Source: Lachnoclostridium sp. An181
Lineage (GTDB): Bacteria > Bacillota > Clostridia > Lachnospirales > Lachnospiraceae
Reading direction: 5' to 3'
DNA: 64,000 nt
Assembly: GCF_002160325.1 (NCBI RefSeq)
Contig: NZ_NFKJ01000002.1
Coordinates: 1 to 64,000 of the forward strand
The notes under the pieces were generated by a model. That model made no database searches, had not been told where the DNA came from, and was given only the letters and a program-made list of their open reading frames with translations. Positions within the stretch are counted from its first letter, which is position 1, and each line of letters begins with the position of its first letter. Of the stretch, positions 37,005-46,013 are shown piece by piece. The position numbers were made by a program, and so were the translations under genes.

Positions 37005-38111
37005 TTACTGATATTTTTTTGGCTGTAATCCAACATTTAGTACAAATCCAATTCCCATATACATACAGACAATGGATGTCAGTCCGTAGCTCACAAACGG
37101 TAGGGAGAGTCCTGTGTTTGGGAGCAACATCGTCGCCACACCGATATTGATAAATGTCTGTATCCCTATCAGTGCGGCAACTCCCCCGCAGATAAGCTGC
37201 CCCGCCCGGTCCTGCGCTTTCATACCTATTAGAATACATTCTATTATTATTAATAATAACAAAATTATAACTGCACAACAACCCACAAAGCCAAAATCTT
37301 CACCAATTATTGCAAAAATAAAGTCAGTTTGCGGCTCTAAAATGAAATTTCCGTTTTTCACAGATGTCGTGGAATCTTTGTTTCCAGTCAACTGTCCTGC
37401 TCCGATCGCCATCAGCGAGTTTTTCTGCTGATATGCCTCCTCATCGGCATATTTTTCCGGTTCCAGCCATGCAAGAATTCTCTCCTGCTGATAATCTTTC
37501 AAAAACGGCTGGTTTGGCTGTATGGCAATGACAATAAAGATGACTCCAACCGGAATGACAACAGCAAGCGTCCGCCCGATGATCTTATAACTCAATCCTC
37601 CCATAAACAACAATGCGCAGAACAAAGCCGCAAGACAAAGTGTTGTGGAAAGATTCGGCTGCATATACACTAAAAGCAACGATGGCAGCATCAGACCGAT
37701 GCATTCCAGTATGATCTTTTTATTGCTCATCTCCTCCGCATGTTTCATCATAAATTTGGCAAAAAACAGTATGGTCAGTATTTTTGTCAAATCCGAAGGC
37801 TGGAACTGAAAACCTCCGATCGCCAGCCATCTTGTCGCTCCATTTACGTTTTTACCAAAAAGCAAAACCAACGTAAGAAGTGCAATATTGGCGGCATACA
37901 TCAGCCAGTACAATTTGAGTATCCAGACATAATCGATAAGCGAAATCACAACCATGACTAAAATGCCGAGGATGACTCCGAAAATCTGTCTGCCCTGCAA
38001 TTCTTCCTTCGCACTTCCCACAGCCACGATCCCAATGACAGAGATGGCAATGACAAGTATCACCAGATTAAATTTGTAATCCTTAATATGATATGGTTTT
38101 GTAAATTTCAC
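37005..38111 (-). CDS. rodA: RodA-type SEDS peptidoglycan polymerase
   Basis: A 368-residue SEDS protein with about ten membrane helices, polymerising glycan strands from lipid II with a class B PBP. Conserved segments are GGFQFQPSDLTKILTILFFAKFM, QTDFIFAIIGEDFGFVGC and NTGLSLPFVSYGLTSIVCMY. The partner is the PBP2 encoded four genes upstream. It overlaps minE by 4 nt. The gene falls in the rod (not FtsW) branch by neighbours; sequence alone could also fit SpoVE/FtsW. Confidence 0.88.
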   Translation of the reverse strand: MKFTKPYHIKDYKFNLVILVIAISVIGIVAVGSAKEELQGRQIFGVILGILVMVVISLIDYVWILKLYWLMYAANIALLTLVLLFGKNVNGATRWLAIGGFQFQPSDLTKILTILFFAKFMMKHAEEMSNKKIILECIGLMLPSLLLVYMQPNLSTTLCLAALFCALLFMGGLSYKIIGRTLAVVIPVGVIFIVIAIQPNQPFLKDYQQERILAWLEPEKYADEEAYQQKNSLMAIGAGQLTGNKDSTTSVKNGNFILEPQTDFIFAIIGEDFGFVGCCAVIILLLLIIIECILIGMKAQDRAGQLICGGVAALIGIQTFINIGVATMLLPNTGLSLPFVSYGLTSIVCMYMGIGFVLNVGLQPKKYQ

Positions 38112-38347
38112 AATTTTTCTCCTGTAAGTTTGATAGTAATGTTTGCCCGGGTAACCTGGACTTCAAAATTTTCCTGTGTAACTTCAATATATTTGGATAC
38201 GGTTTGGTACAATTCTTTTTTTAACTGTTCATATTTATCTGGAGTACAGCAGCAGATCCGGTCAGATACAAGAAGAATCTTCAACCGGTCTTTCGCGATA
38301 GGTACAGACGGGGTCTTTGCACCGCCGGAAAATTCCAATACTCCCAT
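38108..38347 (-). CDS. minE: Cell division topological specificity factor MinE
   Basis: A 79-residue MinE. The anti-MinCD region KDRLKILLVSDR matches the family, followed by the dimerisation part (QLKKELYQTVSKYIEV). It stimulates MinD's ATPase to set up pole-to-pole patterning. The ATG lies 9 nt from AGGAGG; a GTG one codon earlier is equally usable. MinE is absent from Bacillus subtilis, which uses DivIVA, so its presence is a clostridial feature. Confidence 0.9.
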   Translation of the reverse strand: MGVLEFSGGAKTPSVPIAKDRLKILLVSDRICCCTPDKYEQLKKELYQTVSKYIEVTQENFEVQVTRANITIKLTGEKL

Positions 38348-38359
38348 CACTTATGCCTC

Positions 38360-39151
38360 CTATTTCTTTTTGAACATTTTTGAAATCTTTGAAAAGAATC
38401 CCGCTCCATCGGACAGATCCATAAGCGGAACCTCCTCTCCGATAACTCTCCTGCAGATATTCTGGTATGCAATCCCAGCCTTAGAGTGCAGTCCAATAAC
38501 CGGTTCTCCCTGATTTGTCCCGATCACGACATGTTCGTCATCCGGAACTGCCCCGAGAAGTGGAATAGCCAGAATTTCCGTCACATCCTCAATGGACATC
38601 ATATCTCCCCGCTTTACCATGTCCATACGGATGCGGTTGATGATCAGATCCATTTTTTTCATCTTATTTTTTTCCAGCAACCCAATGATCCTGTCAGCAT
38701 CCCGGATTGCAGATACTTCCGGAGTAGTCACAATGATCGCTCTGTCCGCTCCTGCGATGGCATTTTGAAATCCCTGCTCAATCCCCGCCGGACAGTCCAG
38801 AAGTATGTAATCAAATTCTTCACTTAATTCTTCGGTAAGCTTTTTCATCTGCTCCGGAGAGACCGCTGACTTGTCTCTCGTCTGCGCAGAAGGCAGAAGC
38901 ATCAAATTTTCATATCGATTATCCCTGATAAGCGCCTGTTTCAAGCGGCAGTTTCCTTCAATGACGTCGACCAGGTTGTACACAATCCTGTTTTCCAACC
39001 CCATCACAACATCTAAATTCCGAAGTCCAAGGTCTGTATCGATCACCACTACCTTTTTATCCAAACGTGCAAGCCCCACACCAAGATTTGCTGTTGTCGT
39101 CGTCTTTCCGACTCCTCCTTTTCCTGATGTTACAACAATGATTTCACCCAT
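38360..39151 (-). CDS. minD: Septum site-determining ATPase MinD
   Basis: A 263-residue ParA-type ATPase. The deviant Walker A is TSGKGGVGKTTTTANLG (residues 9-25), switch regions are VIDTDLGLRNLDVVMGLE and YILLDCPAGIEQGFQ. The C-terminal amphipathic membrane-targeting helix is FFSKISKMFKKK. With MinC and MinE it blocks division near the poles. The start follows GGGAGG; it begins 20 nt from minC. Confidence 0.96.
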   Translation of the reverse strand: MGEIIVVTSGKGGVGKTTTTANLGVGLARLDKKVVVIDTDLGLRNLDVVMGLENRIVYNLVDVIEGNCRLKQALIRDNRYENLMLLPSAQTRDKSAVSPEQMKKLTEELSEEFDYILLDCPAGIEQGFQNAIAGADRAIIVTTPEVSAIRDADRIIGLLEKNKMKKMDLIINRIRMDMVKRGDMMSIEDVTEILAIPLLGAVPDDEHVVIGTNQGEPVIGLHSKAGIAYQNICRRVIGEEVPLMDLSDGAGFFSKISKMFKKK

Positions 39152-39170
39152 TTTCTTTCCTCCCGGTTCT

Positions 39171-39827
39171 TTATTTGGCCAAAGACTGGAACACAAAAGA
39201 GTTCCCTTCTATAAAGGCTTTCTTTGCTCCTGAAACATTATTTTCTTCGTCTTTTGTCCTTTGCGGATCCCACCGGATATCTGCTATTTTCAGTTCCTTT
39301 GGTTCCATGGAGAGCGCACTGATCACAGCATTTCTGTCGCCGGCACATCCGGCATGCACACTGCCGTCAATTCTGCCTATCACCGTTACATTTCCCTTGG
39401 AGACAACCACTGCACCTCTTTCAACGTCCCCAAGTATCACCAGGCTTGTATCAGTTTCCAAAAACTCATTTTTTCTCAAAGTACCTTTGTAAAATCTTCC
39501 GTCCGATTCTTCTTCCGGCTCCTCTCTTTCTCTTGCATGCTCAACTGCGCTCTGATAGAAAGCATCATGTTCCTCATCCATATCCACAATACAAGGAATC
39601 ATAATATCAGCCGTATCTGAGATCAGACGGACGATCTCCTTTTCCTGTGTATGAGTAAGACTCCGTCCCCCAAAGCTGACGGCCATTGCTGATTTGCGGA
39701 AAAATCTTCTTGATGCAGAAAACTTTTCCGCAATCTCGGCCTTCAAATCTTCGTATGGGACATCCGCATCCATATGAACGAGAAGTCCATGTCTTGTGCT
39801 CTTGATGATAACGGAGTTTTTCATCAT
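39171..39827 (-). CDS. minC: Septum site-determining protein MinC
   Basis: A 218-residue MinC. The N-terminal FtsZ-inhibiting domain (about 1-100) precedes a C-terminal beta-helix (VILGDVERGAVVVSKGNVTV, GRIDGSVHAGCAGDRNA) that binds MinD. The usual RSGQ motif before the helix reads RKNE here (YKGTLRKNEFLE). GAAGGTGAT precedes two ATGs. It lies between PBP2 and minD. Confidence 0.9.
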   Translation of the reverse strand: MMKNSVIIKSTRHGLLVHMDADVPYEDLKAEIAEKFSASRRFFRKSAMAVSFGGRSLTHTQEKEIVRLISDTADIMIPCIVDMDEEHDAFYQSAVEHAREREEPEEESDGRFYKGTLRKNEFLETDTSLVILGDVERGAVVVSKGNVTVIGRIDGSVHAGCAGDRNAVISALSMEPKELKIADIRWDPQRTKDEENNVSGAKKAFIEGNSFVFQSLAK

Positions 39828-39845: not shown

Positions 39846-42749
39846 TTAATCACCGGCAATCTGTGCTCCTAAGTTTGCCGCGGAGCCTGTGACAAGATTT
39901 TTCTTGTCTGTCAGGTTGTATTTATATCTTACAATATCGCGCCCAAGTTCAGCTGCATAGGAAGAGCTGTAACCGTTTGCGATACGGACACCCACTGCAA
40001 TTTCCGGTTCATTTGCAGGTGCAAATCCGACAAACAGCGCATGGTCTGCGTGGAGCTTACTCTGCTCTGCTGTACCGGTTTTTCCGGCCATTGCAAATCC
40101 CTCTCTTCTCAAAACAGAGAATGTGCTGCTGTGAGCGGCCATATTCGTCATACCCTGATGCACCGCATTCCATGTCGTGGAAGAAACCTGTTCAAGCTTA
40201 CTTTTTTCTTTTGGATCATAAGTCTGAATCACGTTTTTGTCTTTATCCTCCACATGGTCCAAAAGACTTAAATCATACAGTGTTCCTTTGTTCGCCACGG
40301 TTGTCACATATCTTGTCAACTGACTGACCGTGTAGTTATTTGTACCCTGACCGATTGCTGTACGTACTGCGTCAGTATCTGAAATCTGAGGTGCAGACTC
40401 CGGAATTTCCAGGCCCGATTTTTCAGACAATCCAAACATGGATGCATATTTCTGGAAATTCATGATTCCGTCTGCACTTTTATATTCCCCGCTTCCGGAA
40501 CCAAGACGGTATCCAACTTCATAGAAGAAATCATTACAGGATTTATCAAGCGCTGATACTACATTCAGACTGCCGTGTGCAGATGGATAGATCCAGCACT
40601 TCGGCGCCGGAGAAATTTTATCAAACTGCCCGCTGCAGCCGATATAAGAGCCTGTGGAGATCACATCCTCAGTAAGTCCTGCAACGCTGGAAATCATCTT
40701 AAATGTAGAACCAGGAGCAGTCTTTTCCTGCGTTGCGCTGTTGTAGAGCGGTCTTGACATATCTGAATTTAATTTTGCATAGTAGGAAGAATCCATACTG
40801 TTTGCAAGCTTGTTATTGTCATATCCCGGATAGGAAACGCATACCAATACTTTACCAGTATTGACATCTGTGACCACCATGGAACCGGTACACGGCTCCA
40901 GAGCCAGCTGTCCAGGTGTGATCTCCAGTTTCTCAATCTTCCGGCGCATGAACTCGTAGGAAGAAATTGCTCCTGATGAAAGCTTCGCGTAATCTTCATC
41001 CTCTGTACTTAAAATTCCCTGTTCATACAGGGCAAGACATACCTGCCGTCCCGTAATAGATCCATTCTTGACAAGATACTCATATACCAGTTTCTGAAAT
41101 CCGGTATTGTCAGGAAGATATTCTTTTAAAAGTGAGAGAATTCCTTCGTAAATCTCAGATGCATCCGAATATTTTCCCTGGCTAGGCATATAGTCCTGAA
41201 GTTTGGATGTATCAATCCAGTTTTTTGAAATAGCGTAATTCAAATACGTATAAAGACTGATGGACTCGTCCTTTGTCCACGCATTGTACGTATCATCATT
41301 GGTATCGATGGCATCCTTGTTCAATACACCAGTATTGGTAAGGAGCACCGTATCCGCCACATAGCTCATATATGCCTGCATCTCATCACCCAAATCCTTG
41401 TACGCCGCTGCGTCTGGATTGCCAAGCTCCGCCATGATATCATCGATAGCGCTTTTCTGTCTGGAAGAATACTTTGCATAGATTGCCTGTTCGTTTTGCT
41501 TTGCATCCGCAGATTTGAGATGTTCTAAGTCCAGTACCTCGTTTCCAAGCAATGCATAGTATACATCGCTGATCGGAATGATGATATTCTTTGTATTTCC
41601 TTCCGGATCCGGTTCATAATTCATAACATTCCGGATCCTGTCCAAAAGAATACCGGCCAGCTTTTCTTCAATCATATTGTAAGCTGCAATCTGCATATCT
41701 TTATCTATACTAAGATATAGGTTATTGCCTGCCTTGGCATCTGTTCCTTTTACAGTTTCCAAGACTTTACCTACATTGTCCACGTATACTGTTTCTTCCC
41801 CTTTTGTACCTTTGAGGACTTCATCCATCGACTGTTCAAGACCAGCCTTTCCAATGGTGTCAGTCTTGGAATATTTGTCTTTATTTTTGCCGTCAGCCGT
41901 CAGCTCATTGTACTCCTCTGTTGAAATTTTTCCGGTATATCCGATCAAGGAGGCGAAATATTTGCTGTCATTGTAACAACGTACAGAATCCTCCGCAATA
42001 TCCACTCCCTGAAGACTGTCCATATTTTCCATAACCTCTGCCACAGTCTCATCGCTGACCCCGGATGCGATGACAGTCGGAATGTATTTCTGGTAACTGT
42101 TCAGGGAAATCTGATACCGGATCGTGACCAGTTTCAGAACCGTTGATTTATCGTAATCCTCCTGGTTGATTCCATATCCTGTGATTCCCTTATCTTTGTT
42201 TCCTTCACACAAAAAATTGATGACATCATCCGGAGACGCATTTTTTTCGTTTTCTTTTAGCTTATCAATGGTCGTATATCCGTAGATATCGGCAAGGAAA
42301 CGCTGCCTACCAGTTCCTTCTTCCTGTGCAAATTCGTATTCATCATTTGCATTTATTACTACACCAAAGTCATTGATAATCGAATCATTGTGGGACTCCA
42401 CAATATCAATCACTTTGAGGATAGTCGAATTCAAAGTTTTATTTCTCTCTTTTTCACTGATGTAAGAGCCATTGTCTTCGATCGTAACCGAGTAGGCAAG
42501 CTTATTGTATGCAAGTACATTCCCATTTTTGTCATAAATATTGCCTCTGGTACCCTCTGTGTACTTCTTTTTTTCTATCTGGAGCTTATAGTTGTCCAGG
42601 TATTCCTGCCCTTTTACTATCTGAAGATAGAAAACCCTGTTGACTAACATAAGAAACAATAGGCAGAACACGATGATGACGACCACAAGCCTGGACTCCA
42701 AAATGCGGCCAAGTGCCTCTTTAATCTTACTAAACAAATTTACTTGCAC
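39846..42749 (-). CDS. mrdA: Penicillin-binding protein 2 (class B, elongation) with large insert
   Basis: A 967-residue class B PBP. An N-terminal membrane helix (about 20-42) precedes the dimerisation domain (RGNIYDKNGNVLAYNKL). The transpeptidase motifs are Ser681-Lys684 (APGSTFKM), SCN (in DKSCNDFFYE) and KTG (AGKTGTAEQSKL). It cross-links peptidoglycan with RodA. About 245 residues (roughly 370-615) lie between LYLSIDKDMQIAAY and LEPCTGSMVVTDVNTGKV, where typical PBPs have only a short stretch; this explains the length against a usual 600-750. The insert is rich in Asp, Tyr and Ala and looks mostly helical. Confidence 0.92.
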   Translation of the reverse strand: MQVNLFSKIKEALGRILESRLVVVIIVFCLLFLMLVNRVFYLQIVKGQEYLDNYKLQIEKKKYTEGTRGNIYDKNGNVLAYNKLAYSVTIEDNGSYISEKERNKTLNSTILKVIDIVESHNDSIINDFGVVINANDEYEFAQEEGTGRQRFLADIYGYTTIDKLKENEKNASPDDVINFLCEGNKDKGITGYGINQEDYDKSTVLKLVTIRYQISLNSYQKYIPTVIASGVSDETVAEVMENMDSLQGVDIAEDSVRCYNDSKYFASLIGYTGKISTEEYNELTADGKNKDKYSKTDTIGKAGLEQSMDEVLKGTKGEETVYVDNVGKVLETVKGTDAKAGNNLYLSIDKDMQIAAYNMIEEKLAGILLDRIRNVMNYEPDPEGNTKNIIIPISDVYYALLGNEVLDLEHLKSADAKQNEQAIYAKYSSRQKSAIDDIMAELGNPDAAAYKDLGDEMQAYMSYVADTVLLTNTGVLNKDAIDTNDDTYNAWTKDESISLYTYLNYAISKNWIDTSKLQDYMPSQGKYSDASEIYEGILSLLKEYLPDNTGFQKLVYEYLVKNGSITGRQVCLALYEQGILSTEDEDYAKLSSGAISSYEFMRRKIEKLEITPGQLALEPCTGSMVVTDVNTGKVLVCVSYPGYDNNKLANSMDSSYYAKLNSDMSRPLYNSATQEKTAPGSTFKMISSVAGLTEDVISTGSYIGCSGQFDKISPAPKCWIYPSAHGSLNVVSALDKSCNDFFYEVGYRLGSGSGEYKSADGIMNFQKYASMFGLSEKSGLEIPESAPQISDTDAVRTAIGQGTNNYTVSQLTRYVTTVANKGTLYDLSLLDHVEDKDKNVIQTYDPKEKSKLEQVSSTTWNAVHQGMTNMAAHSSTFSVLRREGFAMAGKTGTAEQSKLHADHALFVGFAPANEPEIAVGVRIANGYSSSYAAELGRDIVRYKYNLTDKKNLVTGSAANLGAQIAGD

Positions 42750-43263
42750 TCCTTTTCTCTTCTGCTTCCAACTTTTGATTGATACGTAATATGATTTGAT
42801 AAAGAACCAGTGTTATCAAAACCGTGTACACCAATTCCGGCATGATGATCCTGCTAAGGTAAAACAGAAAATCAAATTTGCTGCGCATCATATACAGCAG
42901 CAAATAGTTGACAATGCCGAAGAGGAATTCGCTACCAAAAATCAGTGCTATCGGCAGTTTAATGTCTTCCGCAAAAAACAAACGTTTGAACCATCCGTTT
43001 CCGTATCCGATCAATGTGTAGAGCAAAGCATAAAATCCAATCAGCGAACCTACTCCAAACATGATGTCCATCAAAAGACCGCAGAAAAATCCGATGACCA
43101 TGCCCTCGTTCTTTCCACGCATGAAACCAAATGAAGCTGTTACGATAATCATCAGGTTTGGCGCAATAGATGCAAATTCCAGATTTTGAAATACGGTGCT
43201 CTGCAGCAGAAAACATATGATAATGATAAGAAAAGTAATGAAAACTCTTTTCACTTTCAGCAT
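42730..43263 (-). CDS. mreD: Rod shape-determining protein MreD
   Basis: A 177-residue membrane protein with about five helices, low in sequence conservation but fixed by location between mreC and the PBP. FGFMRGKNEGMVIGFFCGLLMD and FGVGSLIGFYALLYTLIG are typical. It takes part in the MreBCD-RodA-PBP2 elongasome. It overlaps the PBP2 gene by 20 nt. Confidence 0.88.
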   Translation of the reverse strand: MLKVKRVFITFLIIIICFLLQSTVFQNLEFASIAPNLMIIVTASFGFMRGKNEGMVIGFFCGLLMDIMFGVGSLIGFYALLYTLIGYGNGWFKRLFFAEDIKLPIALIFGSEFLFGIVNYLLLYMMRSKFDFLFYLSRIIMPELVYTVLITLVLYQIILRINQKLEAEEKRSASKFV

Positions 43264-43286: not shown

Positions 43287-44162
43287 CTACTGCTTTGTCA
43301 TTTCCGCTTTGGTCTTTGTCACTACAAGCACTTCCTGAAGATGCGTAAAATCTACAGCCGGAGTAATGTATCCTGACCGGGTCAGATTATTGGCATCATC
43401 GTGGATTTCACTAACATACCCTATGAGAATTCCCTGAAGGTATTTGCTGCTTGTATAAGATGTCACCACTTGTTCACCCACTTCAATCCGATTCTCAGTC
43501 TTTGCAAGCTGTTCAAACCGAATGACTCCATCCTGCATAAGAGTCAAATCTCCCCTGACAATACAAGTATCAGAAGTGGAGAGCATCATGGCACTTACAT
43601 TGCTGGCATCGTCTATGATGGATCGAACCTCTGCCCAGTGAGGCCCTGTCTTTGTGACGATCCCGACCAATCCGCTGCCGGCCATGACATTCTGGTCCAC
43701 TTTTACTCCATCCTCAGAACCTTTATCAATAGTAAATGTACTGAACCAGTTACTTCCATTGTTTGCAATAACATGCGCACCGATTTTTTCATAGTCTGAG
43801 TAATTCAAGTCCAACTTATACAGTTCTCTTAATCGCTCCAGTTCCGCCTGTTCTTGCTGGAGATTGTTTTTCTCGATGGTAAGGCTGTCCACCTGCTCCT
43901 GCAGTTTTTGGTTTTCCTTTTTGACAGTTTTGAGCGTTTCAAAGTTATCAGCCAGGTCATTGAGCCATGTTCCCACATGATTGATTCCTTTTTGCATCGG
44001 AACAACCGTGTAGTCCGCAATCACCTGCAAAGGGGTGTTTGCTTTTCCGTCTGACACAAAGGAGAGCACCATCAGGAGAACACAAATGACCGATAAAATC
44101 AGCAGCCAGTATTTACTTGCTAATGGGTTTGGTTTCTTTGTCTTCATACTTATCTCATCCAC
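43287..44162 (-). CDS. mreC: Rod shape-determining protein MreC
   Basis: A 291-residue MreC. One N-terminal membrane helix (about 18-38), a coiled coil (about 70-115, LKTVKKENQKLQEQVDSL), then two beta domains (NGSNWFSTFTIDKGSEDGVK, GLVGIVTKTGPHWAEVRSI). It activates PBP2 in the elongasome. It overlaps the mreB end by 13 nt. Confidence 0.93.
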   Translation of the reverse strand: MDEISMKTKKPNPLASKYWLLILSVICVLLMVLSFVSDGKANTPLQVIADYTVVPMQKGINHVGTWLNDLADNFETLKTVKKENQKLQEQVDSLTIEKNNLQQEQAELERLRELYKLDLNYSDYEKIGAHVIANNGSNWFSTFTIDKGSEDGVKVDQNVMAGSGLVGIVTKTGPHWAEVRSIIDDASNVSAMMLSTSDTCIVRGDLTLMQDGVIRFEQLAKTENRIEVGEQVVTSYTSSKYLQGILIGYVSEIHDDANNLTRSGYITPAVDFTHLQEVLVVTKTKAEMTKQ

Positions 44163-45172
44163 CTATATCTTTCATCTAACATTGAGTATATTTTCTTTTT
44201 ATATTCCTTTGAGTGCAGCATTAGTTTTATCCCGTTCACTGCACTATATTCAGGTTCTTTGATGCACGTTGTGCAAAACCCTGTCAATTCACTGAAGTAA
44301 ACATCAATTCCCGGTATGTTTGCCAGCCCTCCTGTCAGACAAATGCCATTTTTCTGCAGTGACCTCCACACATCCGGAGGGGTTCTCTCCAACAACATCC
44401 GGATCTCCTGTACACATCTTTCAAGTGGAGATCGAACGGCTGCCCGGATCAGGCCCGGAGAGACATTCAGATATCCCGGAAAAGAGGTCGTCAAATCCTT
44501 TCCCGCAATTCTTTTTTTCATCTCCTTTTCCTCCCCAAAAAGCCCGGTGCTTTTTCTGAGTTCTTCAGCCGTCAGTCTGCCAATCTGAAAATCATAATTG
44601 TTTCGCACAAAGTTTACAACTGCCTCGTCAAATGTTTTCCCGCCAATGTGGATCTTCCGATTCAGGACAAGTCCCCCCATGGCTATAACGGACACTTCTG
44701 TGACGCTGCCCCCAAGATTGACGACCGCACTTCCTTTTGTCTCCTCTATGGGAATTCCGGCTCCCACAGCCTCCGCAATCCCTCTTTCAATGATATTTAC
44801 TTCCCTTGCCCTGGCATTTGAATGAATAACAAGGTCAAAAAAAGCTTTTTTTTCCACTTCTGTCACATCTGTGGGAACTGCTATGACATATTCAGCTCCC
44901 GCAATGCGGTTCTTCCTGTCCTTCAAAAGACACTGCATCAGATACTGCATATTACTGAAACTGGAGATGACTCCGTCTTTCATGGGAAACTGGACGGAAA
45001 TATTGGCCGGGGATTTCTCATACATCCGGTACGCTTTTTCCCCAACCGCAAAAATCCGGCTGTCGTCAATTATGGCAACTGTATTTTTTTCTTTCCAGAT
45101 GGAATCCGTCTTCTGATCATATACTTTGATTTCATATGTGCCGAGATCCAATCCATATACGTCTCTTGCCAT
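44150..45172 (-). CDS. mreB: MreB-family rod-shape protein, divergent ATP site
   Basis: A 340-residue actin-like protein that guides sidewall synthesis. Phosphate-1 loop is GLDLGTYEIKVY. Phosphate-2, usually DIGGGTTE, reads NLGGSVTEV (152-160), changing the Asp to Asn and losing a Gly and Thr. The adenosine motif is GICLTGGLANIPGID. The segment IIERGIAEAVGAGIP replaces the usual IEEP. The gene is in the correct place before mreC. It may polymerise with altered nucleotide turnover; no second mreB is visible in the window. Confidence 0.87.
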   Translation of the reverse strand: MARDVYGLDLGTYEIKVYDQKTDSIWKEKNTVAIIDDSRIFAVGEKAYRMYEKSPANISVQFPMKDGVISSFSNMQYLMQCLLKDRKNRIAGAEYVIAVPTDVTEVEKKAFFDLVIHSNARAREVNIIERGIAEAVGAGIPIEETKGSAVVNLGGSVTEVSVIAMGGLVLNRKIHIGGKTFDEAVVNFVRNNYDFQIGRLTAEELRKSTGLFGEEKEMKKRIAGKDLTTSFPGYLNVSPGLIRAAVRSPLERCVQEIRMLLERTPPDVWRSLQKNGICLTGGLANIPGIDVYFSELTGFCTTCIKEPEYSAVNGIKLMLHSKEYKKKIYSMLDERYRWMR

Positions 45173-45193: not shown

Positions 45194-45892
45194 TCATAAA
45201 AGCTTTTTCTCGGCAAAACTTAAATAACAGTTATTTCCAATAATAATGTGGTCCAGCAGTTCGATTCCGATCAAACTGCCGGCCTCCTTGATTCTTTTTG
45301 TCACCAGCAGATCTTCTCTGCTCGGCGTAGGCTCACCGCTAGGATGATTGTGCAGAAGAATAATGGAAACAGCGTTCTTCTGCAATGCCTCTATAAAAAG
45401 TTCTCTCGGAGAAACCAGTGTGGCATTCACTGTGCCTTTGGAAATCAGGCTCTCTCCGATCAGCCTTGTTTTTGTATCCAGCATCAAAAGTTTCATATGT
45501 TCCTGCTTAAGATGCCGCATATCTTCCATATAATATTTTGCAATTGTTTTAGGAGAAGAGAAGGATAAATTTAAAGCTGCAGCTGCTTTGGAAAGGCGTC
45601 TTGCAAGCTCTGCGATACAGACAACCTGCACGGCCTTCACTTTTCCGATGCCGTCCACTTTCTGTACAGTCTTTGCATCCCACTCATAGAGTGCAAGAAT
45701 CCCTTTTTCATTTACGGCATCCCCAAACAAAAGTTCCCTGGAGACTTCCAATACGTTCCTTCCTTTTTTCCCGCTTCGCAAAATCACTGCTAGCAGCTCC
45801 GTATCTGTCAGTACACCAGGGCCAAAGCGCTCGCACTTCTCATATGGGCGCTCTTCATTGGGCAACTTTTTTATTGTATGTTCTTGATTCAT
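45194..45892 (-). CDS. radC: RadC-family JAB-domain protein
   Basis: A 232-residue RadC/YsxA protein. An N-terminal helix-hairpin-helix region (LYEWDAKTVQKVDGIGKVKA) precedes a JAB/MPN metalloprotease-like fold with HNHPSGEPTPSREDL. Named for a mistaken repair phenotype; its actual role is not settled. It begins the classical radC-mreBCD-min string. MNQEHTI is the preferred start, though its ribosome site is weak. Confidence 0.9.
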   Translation of the reverse strand: MNQEHTIKKLPNEERPYEKCERFGPGVLTDTELLAVILRSGKKGRNVLEVSRELLFGDAVNEKGILALYEWDAKTVQKVDGIGKVKAVQVVCIAELARRLSKAAAALNLSFSSPKTIAKYYMEDMRHLKQEHMKLLMLDTKTRLIGESLISKGTVNATLVSPRELFIEALQKNAVSIILLHNHPSGEPTPSREDLLVTKRIKEAGSLIGIELLDHIIIGNNCYLSFAEKKLL

Positions 45893-45984
45893 TCTCTTAT
45901 GTAGACAATTGACACAAAACAAGATGCAGAAGGATTCCCTCGTTTTATACTCCTCCTCACTTCTGCATTCCACAAACACAACAT

Positions 45985-46013
45985 ATTGTAGCATAATTTA
46001 AAAAAAGTGTATA
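45985..46013 (-). promoter_or_regulatory. Possible promoter of the radC-mre-min operon
   Basis: On the - strand TATACA, a 17-bp spacer and TACAAT, in the 156-nt gap before radC. The -35 fit is moderate. Confidence 0.42.

Follow-up and report, generated by a model that had tools for sequence, protein, structure and literature searches.

An MreB subfamily with basic residues at the catalytic site in the wall-synthesis operon of Lachnospiraceae

The mreB gene at positions 44150 to 45172 (minus strand) of a 64,000-nucleotide stretch of Lachnoclostridium sp. An181 (positions 1 to 64,000 of contig NZ_NFKJ01000002.1, referred to here as the window) stands in the usual mreBCD-PBP2 position, but codes for a protein whose nucleotide site departs from that of canonical MreBs at the residues tied to catalysis. 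On balance, we take this protein to belong to a conserved, charge-inverted and hydrolysis-poor subfamily of MreB that would act beside a canonical MreB in the elongasome. Judged by sequence, the subfamily is defined by lysine or arginine at residue 16 together with lysine or arginine in place of the catalytic glutamate (Glu140 of Caulobacter crescentus MreB, CcMreB). It is centered on Lachnospiraceae, where it is a family-wide oddity.

The nucleotide site of the operon MreB

The gene and the parts of it that carry the argument are the following (residues 9 to 283 are numbered in the window protein; Glu140, Asp162, Thr167 and Glu169, and V118 and S283 where called equivalents, follow CcMreB).

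44150..45172, minus strand: operon mreB coding for the altered MreB, 340 amino acids (open reading frame, Pfam MreB_Mbl, AlphaFold2 model and structural match)
45125..45148, minus strand: phosphate-1 loop DLGTYEIK, residues 9-16, with Asp9 retained and Lys16 new
44780..44791, minus strand: connect/catalytic motif IERG, residues 128-131, with Arg130 for Glu140 (alignment with solved MreBs)
44693..44719, minus strand: phosphate-2 loop NLGGSVTEV, residues 152-160, with Asn152 for Asp162 and Val157 for Thr167, Glu159 corresponding to Glu169
44324..44335, minus strand: adenosine motif TGGL, residues 280-283, with its third Gly replaced
44153..44188, minus strand: conserved C-terminal tail YSMLDERYRWMR, near-identical in 7/7 rows of clade A1

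Stops interrupt the plus strand across 44150-45172, and translation of the minus strand bears out the two motifs spelled out in an earlier, sequence-only reading of the window, NLGGSVTEV and IERG (within VVNLGGSVTEV, residues 150-160, and IIERG, residues 127-131). The protein is predicted to have the MreB fold. It matches Pfam MreB_Mbl (PF06723) with 256.4 bits against a gathering cut-off of 27, and its AlphaFold2 model, made from a 56-sequence alignment, has a mean predicted local distance difference test score of 88.9 and a predicted template modeling score of 0.87. The top PDB match of the model is C. crescentus MreB (4czf, Z 39.6), and the 23 best listed matches are all MreB/Mbl (Z 33.1-39.6). 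The scores lie below the NCBIfam mreB cut-offs (TIGR00904, 222.9 vs 365.75; NF010539, 268.6 vs 293).

The window protein aligns with solved MreBs across most of its length, and this alignment, suggested by the sequence-only reading, pairs Arg130 with Glu140, the second acidic residue of IEEP/IDEP, Asn152 with Asp162, and Val157 with Thr167. In place of the canonical set Glu140/Asp162/Thr167 the window protein thus has R130, N152 and V157. The earlier emphasis on the phosphate-2 loop, with the change of its Asp to Asn as the key, has to be shifted accordingly: the loop is altered and Asn152 is there, but this is the lesser change, absent from 30 of 133 altered MreBs, and the replacements of Glu140 and Thr167 and the new Lys16 had been left unspelled. 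Lys16 sits seven residues past the phosphate-1 Asp, the spacing of actin Lys18 and of the phosphate-1 lysine of FtsA/PilM; the window sequence is otherwise that of an MreB.

Coupled changes at residues 16 and 130

Sequences were compared in two ways. Operon and non-operon MreBs were grouped by gene position, independently of residues 16 and 130, which avoids circularity; the "altered" (133) and "canonical" (65) rows, on the other hand, are defined by these two residues, so that counts at those sites inside the two groups are circular; the cross-tabulation of all 200 rows given below is not affected. Open reading frames shorter than 200 amino acids and identical rows were dropped. The relatives set comprises 116 genomes, 71 of them of the same family (Lachnospiraceae, inferred from named relatives), and is a fairer sample than the named loci. 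The latter are the top 80 among 404 confirmed matches to a profile made from seven rows of the window's clade, and so over-represent Arg130 and Asn152.

Among the operon MreBs of the family, residue 16 was Lys or Arg in 51/51 and residue 130 was Lys in 44, Arg in six and Met in one; the named loci had Lys or Arg at 16 and Arg at 130 in all 79 operon MreBs. Operon MreBs of other families (10/10) had Leu or Val at 16 and Glu at 130, and the non-operon copies of the family (17/17) had Leu and Glu, a contrast that exceeds chance. When 200 distinct MreBs were cross-tabulated, 135 combined Lys/Arg16 with a residue 130 other than Glu, 65 combined Leu/Val/Ile16 with Glu130, and none was mixed. Residue 130 was Arg in 85, Lys in 47 and Met in one of the 133 altered rows. 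Two further Arg16 rows, which belong to neither group, have Gln130 (locus L228, genome G110, of another family) and Ser130 (L232, G040). Another 29 proteins of the phylum agree with the coupling.

In a quick tree of 121 of the 200 rows, calculated without bootstrap and without the columns scored, the altered rows form one side of a supported branch (Shimodaira-Hasegawa-like approximate likelihood ratio test, 100*). The window protein, within a 71-row altered group, has the basic residue 16, the non-Glu residue 130 and the position on this branch by which we delimit the subfamily, and L228 and L232 lie within the two canonical groups. Counted as minima without direction, there were three changes each at residues 16 and 130, and these agree. 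The Asn/Asp site 152 changed at least eight times and has Asn in 103 of the 133 altered rows, so that Asp162 to Asn does not define the group. In 19 columns the entropy is low among altered and canonical rows alike, yet the prevailing residue differs between the two.

Other parts of the pocket are kept in the altered rows: Asp9 and both adenosine-motif glycines in 133/133, Thr158 in 131 and Glu159 in 130. By contrast, Gly283, the third glycine of the adenosine motif, is found in 65/65 Glu130 rows vs 9/133 altered ones, and residue 156, Gly in 65/65 canonical rows, is Glu or Asp in 99/133 altered rows. The filament contacts are mixed, the V118 equivalent being Val or Ile and residue 53 Lys or Arg in 133/133 altered rows (Lys57 of ScMreB5 was mapped to residue 53 by hand counting) and the S283 equivalent being changed. 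The protein end is also distinctive: the pattern YSMLDExYRWMR closes 77/133 altered proteins, all 77 with Arg130, and 0/65 canonical ones, and this tail is a possible binding motif.

A canonical MreB elsewhere in the genome and the distribution of the altered one

The 64-kb window holds no second mreB, as the sequence-only reading had noted, and the search of the whole genome that it recommended located a canonical copy beside uvrA (G000:C52:80193-81164, 469.4 bits; genome 99.88% complete). This copy has the motifs GIDLGTASVL, LIEEP and VDIGGGTSD (corresponding to DLGT..L, IEEP and DIGGGT) and clears both NCBIfam cut-offs. A third PF06723 match in the genome (contig C1, locus L003, 77.5 bits, in a frame of 626 amino acids) is presumed to be DnaK and was left out of the counts. 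The operon copy is therefore not the sole MreB of the genome, and the rod complex need not depend on it. The situation is general: a match to the canonical protein with E 1.5e-116 or better was present in 53/53 same-family genomes with an altered MreB, and the 26 canonical copies of the family that were read, including that of the window genome, all have Glu130.

Sixty-seven same-family genomes were informative, 66 in which mreC was found plus G006; four others (G018, G020, G023 and G064), which are 60-78% complete and gave no mreC, were excluded. The altered MreB was present in 53 of the 67 and seen beside mreC in 52; the remaining one, G006 (67% complete, no mreC found), also stands outside the presence/absence tree. 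Of the possibility raised by the sequence-only reading, that the altered loop is common and active across Lachnospiraceae, the first half thus holds. The remaining 14 (L094-L107) have no operon mreB: radC directly adjoins mreC, and mreC-mreD-PBP2 is kept. A canonical MreB in the operon was found in 0/67. Among 31 operon MreBs that were read in further families of the order, 27 have Glu130, three are altered (two genomes of family f21 and one of f4) and one is L228; two genomes of family f22 (L108-L109) have no operon mreB. The non-operon copies L231 and L232, in genomes without operon mreB, have Glu130 and Ser130. Over 299 genomes of the phylum, the best 29 matches after the window's own were two altered MreBs, both of the same family, and 27 with Glu130, so that a spread of the altered type through the phylum was not borne out; lower-scoring matches, among them those of a third same-family genome (G318), were not read, and altered MreBs may occur elsewhere.

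On a quick RadC-MreC-MreD tree (74 rows, seven from other families) the presence or absence of operon mreB requires a minimum of three changes inside the family, or five when all rows are counted. Loss is the natural direction to infer, because other families carry mreB at the same place.

Interpretation and alternatives

Hydrolysis of ATP by the window protein is likely to be poor or absent, because it has other residues in place of Glu140, Asp162 and Thr167, all three of which solved MreBs link to Mg2+, to water or to catalysis. The reading that we favor is that a lysine added to the phosphate-1 loop, with Lys or Arg for the catalytic Glu and often Asn for Asp162, would have rebuilt the site and inverted its charge. 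An anionic ligand, the nucleotide, may still be held at Asp9, Lys16 and Arg130, and with the loss of the water-positioning Glu hydrolysis would be very slow or nil. The altered MreB could then be a stable, nucleotide-locked partner of canonical MreB in the MreCD-PBP2-RodA elongasome, perhaps as a co-filament subunit, a nucleator or seed, a cap or an MreC-side anchor, with the ATPase cycle supplied by the canonical protein. A role alongside canonical MreB in the elongasome is the most likely one because mreC, mreD, PBP2 and RodA share the cluster and a canonical MreB is present. The sequence-only reading had proposed that a rod complex may rely on an ATPase-poor or slowly cycling MreB; the poor ATPase is likely, but sole reliance on this MreB is not supported, given the canonical copy and the 14 relatives without operon mreB.

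Several observations weigh against the favored reading. Fourteen of the 67 informative relatives manage without an operon MreB. Asp162 is retained in 30/133 altered rows, and because Thr167 (123/133) and Glu169 (130/133) are mostly retained a residual route of hydrolysis may survive, though the window protein, with Val157, is one of five altered rows with neither Thr nor Ser there. Filament formation and nucleotide binding could both be impaired: the S283 equivalent is basic in 84/133 altered vs 0/65 canonical rows, and 124/133 altered rows lack the third glycine of the adenosine motif. Only about three separate changes underlie the coupling of residues 16 and 130, a number that does not allow a formal test. 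Lastly, the window branch is long (0.71 vs a median of 0.25), and none of the dN/dS (nonsynonymous to synonymous substitution) pairs given below includes the window gene. A wider version of the favored reading is put forward tentatively, as possible but doubtful: most of the family would have a two-actin elongasome, in which a cycling canonical MreB works with a charge-inverted operon protein that holds nucleotide without hydrolyzing it, as stable seed, cap or MreC anchor, and the coupled swap, as Arg16 with Gln or Ser, would have arisen separately at least twice more (L228 and L232).

The main rival, because of the loss of the third adenosine Gly in 124/133 rows, is a nucleotide-free scaffold, in which Lys16 and Arg/Lys130 replace the Mg-nucleotide in the pocket and lock the protein as a static, perhaps non-polymerizing MreC-side adaptor. 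It also draws on the Glu or Asp at residue 156 and on the basic S283 equivalent, the change S283D being reported to turn CcMreB monomeric. Still, we think it unlikely, as Asp9, two adenosine glycines, Thr158 and Glu159 are kept in nearly all altered rows, unlike what is expected of a discarded site.

Somewhat less probable again is an active ATPase of altered chemistry, with Lys130 or Arg130 placing the water or the gamma-phosphate and the Thr-x-Glu pair taking the proton. The retention of Thr167 and Glu169 in most altered rows is in its favor, and so is the SpeMreB study, which gives proton removal to the Thr-acid pair, separate from the first Glu (PMC9597168). The window protein, however, has Val157, and in ScMreB5 the changes E134A and T161A each reduce the ATPase activity.

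Decay of a paralog, the substitutions being a relaxation that precedes a loss of the kind seen in the 14 relatives lacking operon mreB, is very improbable. The three or more presence/absence changes within the family (presumably losses) and the long window branch agree with it. Against this, residues 16 and 130 are basic in 130/130 family rows save one Met130, and the median dN/dS of mreB is 0.019 (23 pairs from the named loci), below those of mreC (0.027, 23 pairs), radC (0.060, 30) and mreD (0.065, 34), which indicates strong selection and contradicts decay of the subfamily, at least for the pairs of relatives. The pairs, taken at each gene's own dS of 0.15-1.2, share branches, and individual ones can show radC below mreB. 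We give least credit to an FtsA surrogate, a protein that took over the role of FtsA with an FtsA-like phosphate-1 lysine: the genome has no match above the FtsA cut-off (TIGR01174), only its two MreBs beneath it (the altered one with 22.8 bits vs 175.85), and minC and minD lie in the same cluster, but none of the 116 relatives passes either, with or without an altered MreB, including the canonical-operon families and the genomes without operon mreB, and 47 of them have a longer protein that aligns with the greater part of the FtsA model at 75-120 bits, so it was rejected as a specific explanation. The open frames of these 47 proteins are for the most part about 590-980 amino acids long (one has 422), and no such protein was seen in the window genome.

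Comparison with known MreBs

The altered subfamily appears to be new: judged by title or start of abstract, none of the papers listed from the open-licence literature, which leaves subscription journals mostly outside, is about it. Among known systems, MreB3 of Spiroplasma and the pairs of MreB isoforms in that genus come nearest. With the canonical MreB/Mbl of C. crescentus, Thermotoga maritima and Geobacillus stearothermophilus (PF06723) the window protein shares the fold, the phosphate-1 Asp, the V118 equivalent and the operon position. Unlike them, it has Arg for Glu140, Asn for Asp162, Val for Thr167 and Lys16, has lost the third adenosine Gly, carries a C-terminal tail and scores below the NCBIfam mreB cut-offs.

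In ScMreB5 the Mg2+ sphere is held by three residues, Asp12, Glu134 and Asp156; changing any of them to Ala (D12A, E134A, D156A) reduces ATPase activity, as does T161A, the latter measured on one protein batch (PMC9195046). Ordinary phosphate release by MreB is quoted as about 0.1-0.2 per min. The E134A mutant still forms filaments (PMC9195046), with altered dynamics and membrane binding. It has lost the same catalytic Glu as the window protein, in which, unlike the laboratory mutant, the change is natural, basic and coupled to Lys16. SpeMreB3, which is without the E...T-x-[D/E] motif, releases phosphate very slowly and yet forms filaments; the motif is present in 95.8% of the non-Spiroplasma MreBs of that study (PMC9597168). 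Both SpeMreB3 and the window protein are isoforms lacking this motif beside other, in Spiroplasma more active, isoforms, and the SpeMreB3 structures (7e1c, 7e1g) match the window model at Z 34.5-35.4. SpeMreB3 has Asp, Lys and Ser at the positions of E140, T167 and E169, whereas the window protein has a basic residue at the first and keeps E169, and its gene, unlike that of SpeMreB3, is in a wall-synthesis operon. Spiroplasma MreB1 and MreB5 offer a further parallel, two isoforms of unequal ATPase activity with one acting on the filaments of the other; in that pair it is the highly active isoform that manages the other, whereas in the window genome the pairing is putative. Residue labels E134, D156, D158 and E136 are not present in PMC10718530, and PMC7738495, considered as a source on Lachnospiraceae MreB, was rejected because it concerns spirochaete shape genes.

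The role of ATP hydrolysis by MreB is unsettled in the literature. A natural, conserved MreB with a basic residue at the catalytic Glu, standing beside a canonical copy and missing from sister genera that keep mreCD-PBP2, lets one and the same operon be compared in the presence and in the absence of a hydrolysis-poor actin. Across much of this large family of gut bacteria, an "mreB in an mreBCD operon" need not code for the MreB that works as an ATPase, and the earlier emphasis on a single loop and the sole-MreB model both need replacing. The A22 derivative MP265 is reported to bind Glu140 of CcMreB, and A22-type inhibitors, as well as knock-downs, may affect just one of the two actins.

Gene neighborhood

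The mreB gene is surrounded by the following genes.

45194..45994, minus strand: radC-like gene upstream of mreB, with a gap of 21 bp
43287..44162, minus strand: mreC, overlapping the 3' end of mreB (PF04085 match at this place)
42730..43263, minus strand: mreD (by reading and by its place; order shared with relatives)
39846..42749, minus strand: PBP2-like transpeptidase, 967 amino acids (by reading; same order in relatives)
39171-39827, minus strand: minC (by reading)
38360-39196, minus strand: minD (by reading)
37005-38111, minus strand: RodA-like gene (by reading and PF01098)

The order radC-mreB-mreC-mreD-PBP2, followed by minC, minD and the RodA-like gene (the cluster continuing over 37005..39827), confirms the mreBCD-PBP2 position claimed in the sequence-only reading, and the placement of mreB between radC and mreC-mreD-PBP2 recurs in relatives. 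The last codons of mreB, which belong to the tail, share bases with the GTG listed as the start codon of mreC.

Some minor observations were also made. The relatives examined at this cluster have PBP2-like frames of comparable length. For RodZ there was a single weak HTH_25 match. A promoter scan gave 24 sites vs 13.7 expected and was not used as support. In two MreBs of the canonical group (L210 and L212), Glu130 is present but Thr167 is replaced by Ile or Leu. The genomes whose radC-mreC-mreD-PBP2 cluster has no mreB (L094-L107, and L108-L109 of f22) lend themselves to a comparison of cell shape with sister genomes that carry it.
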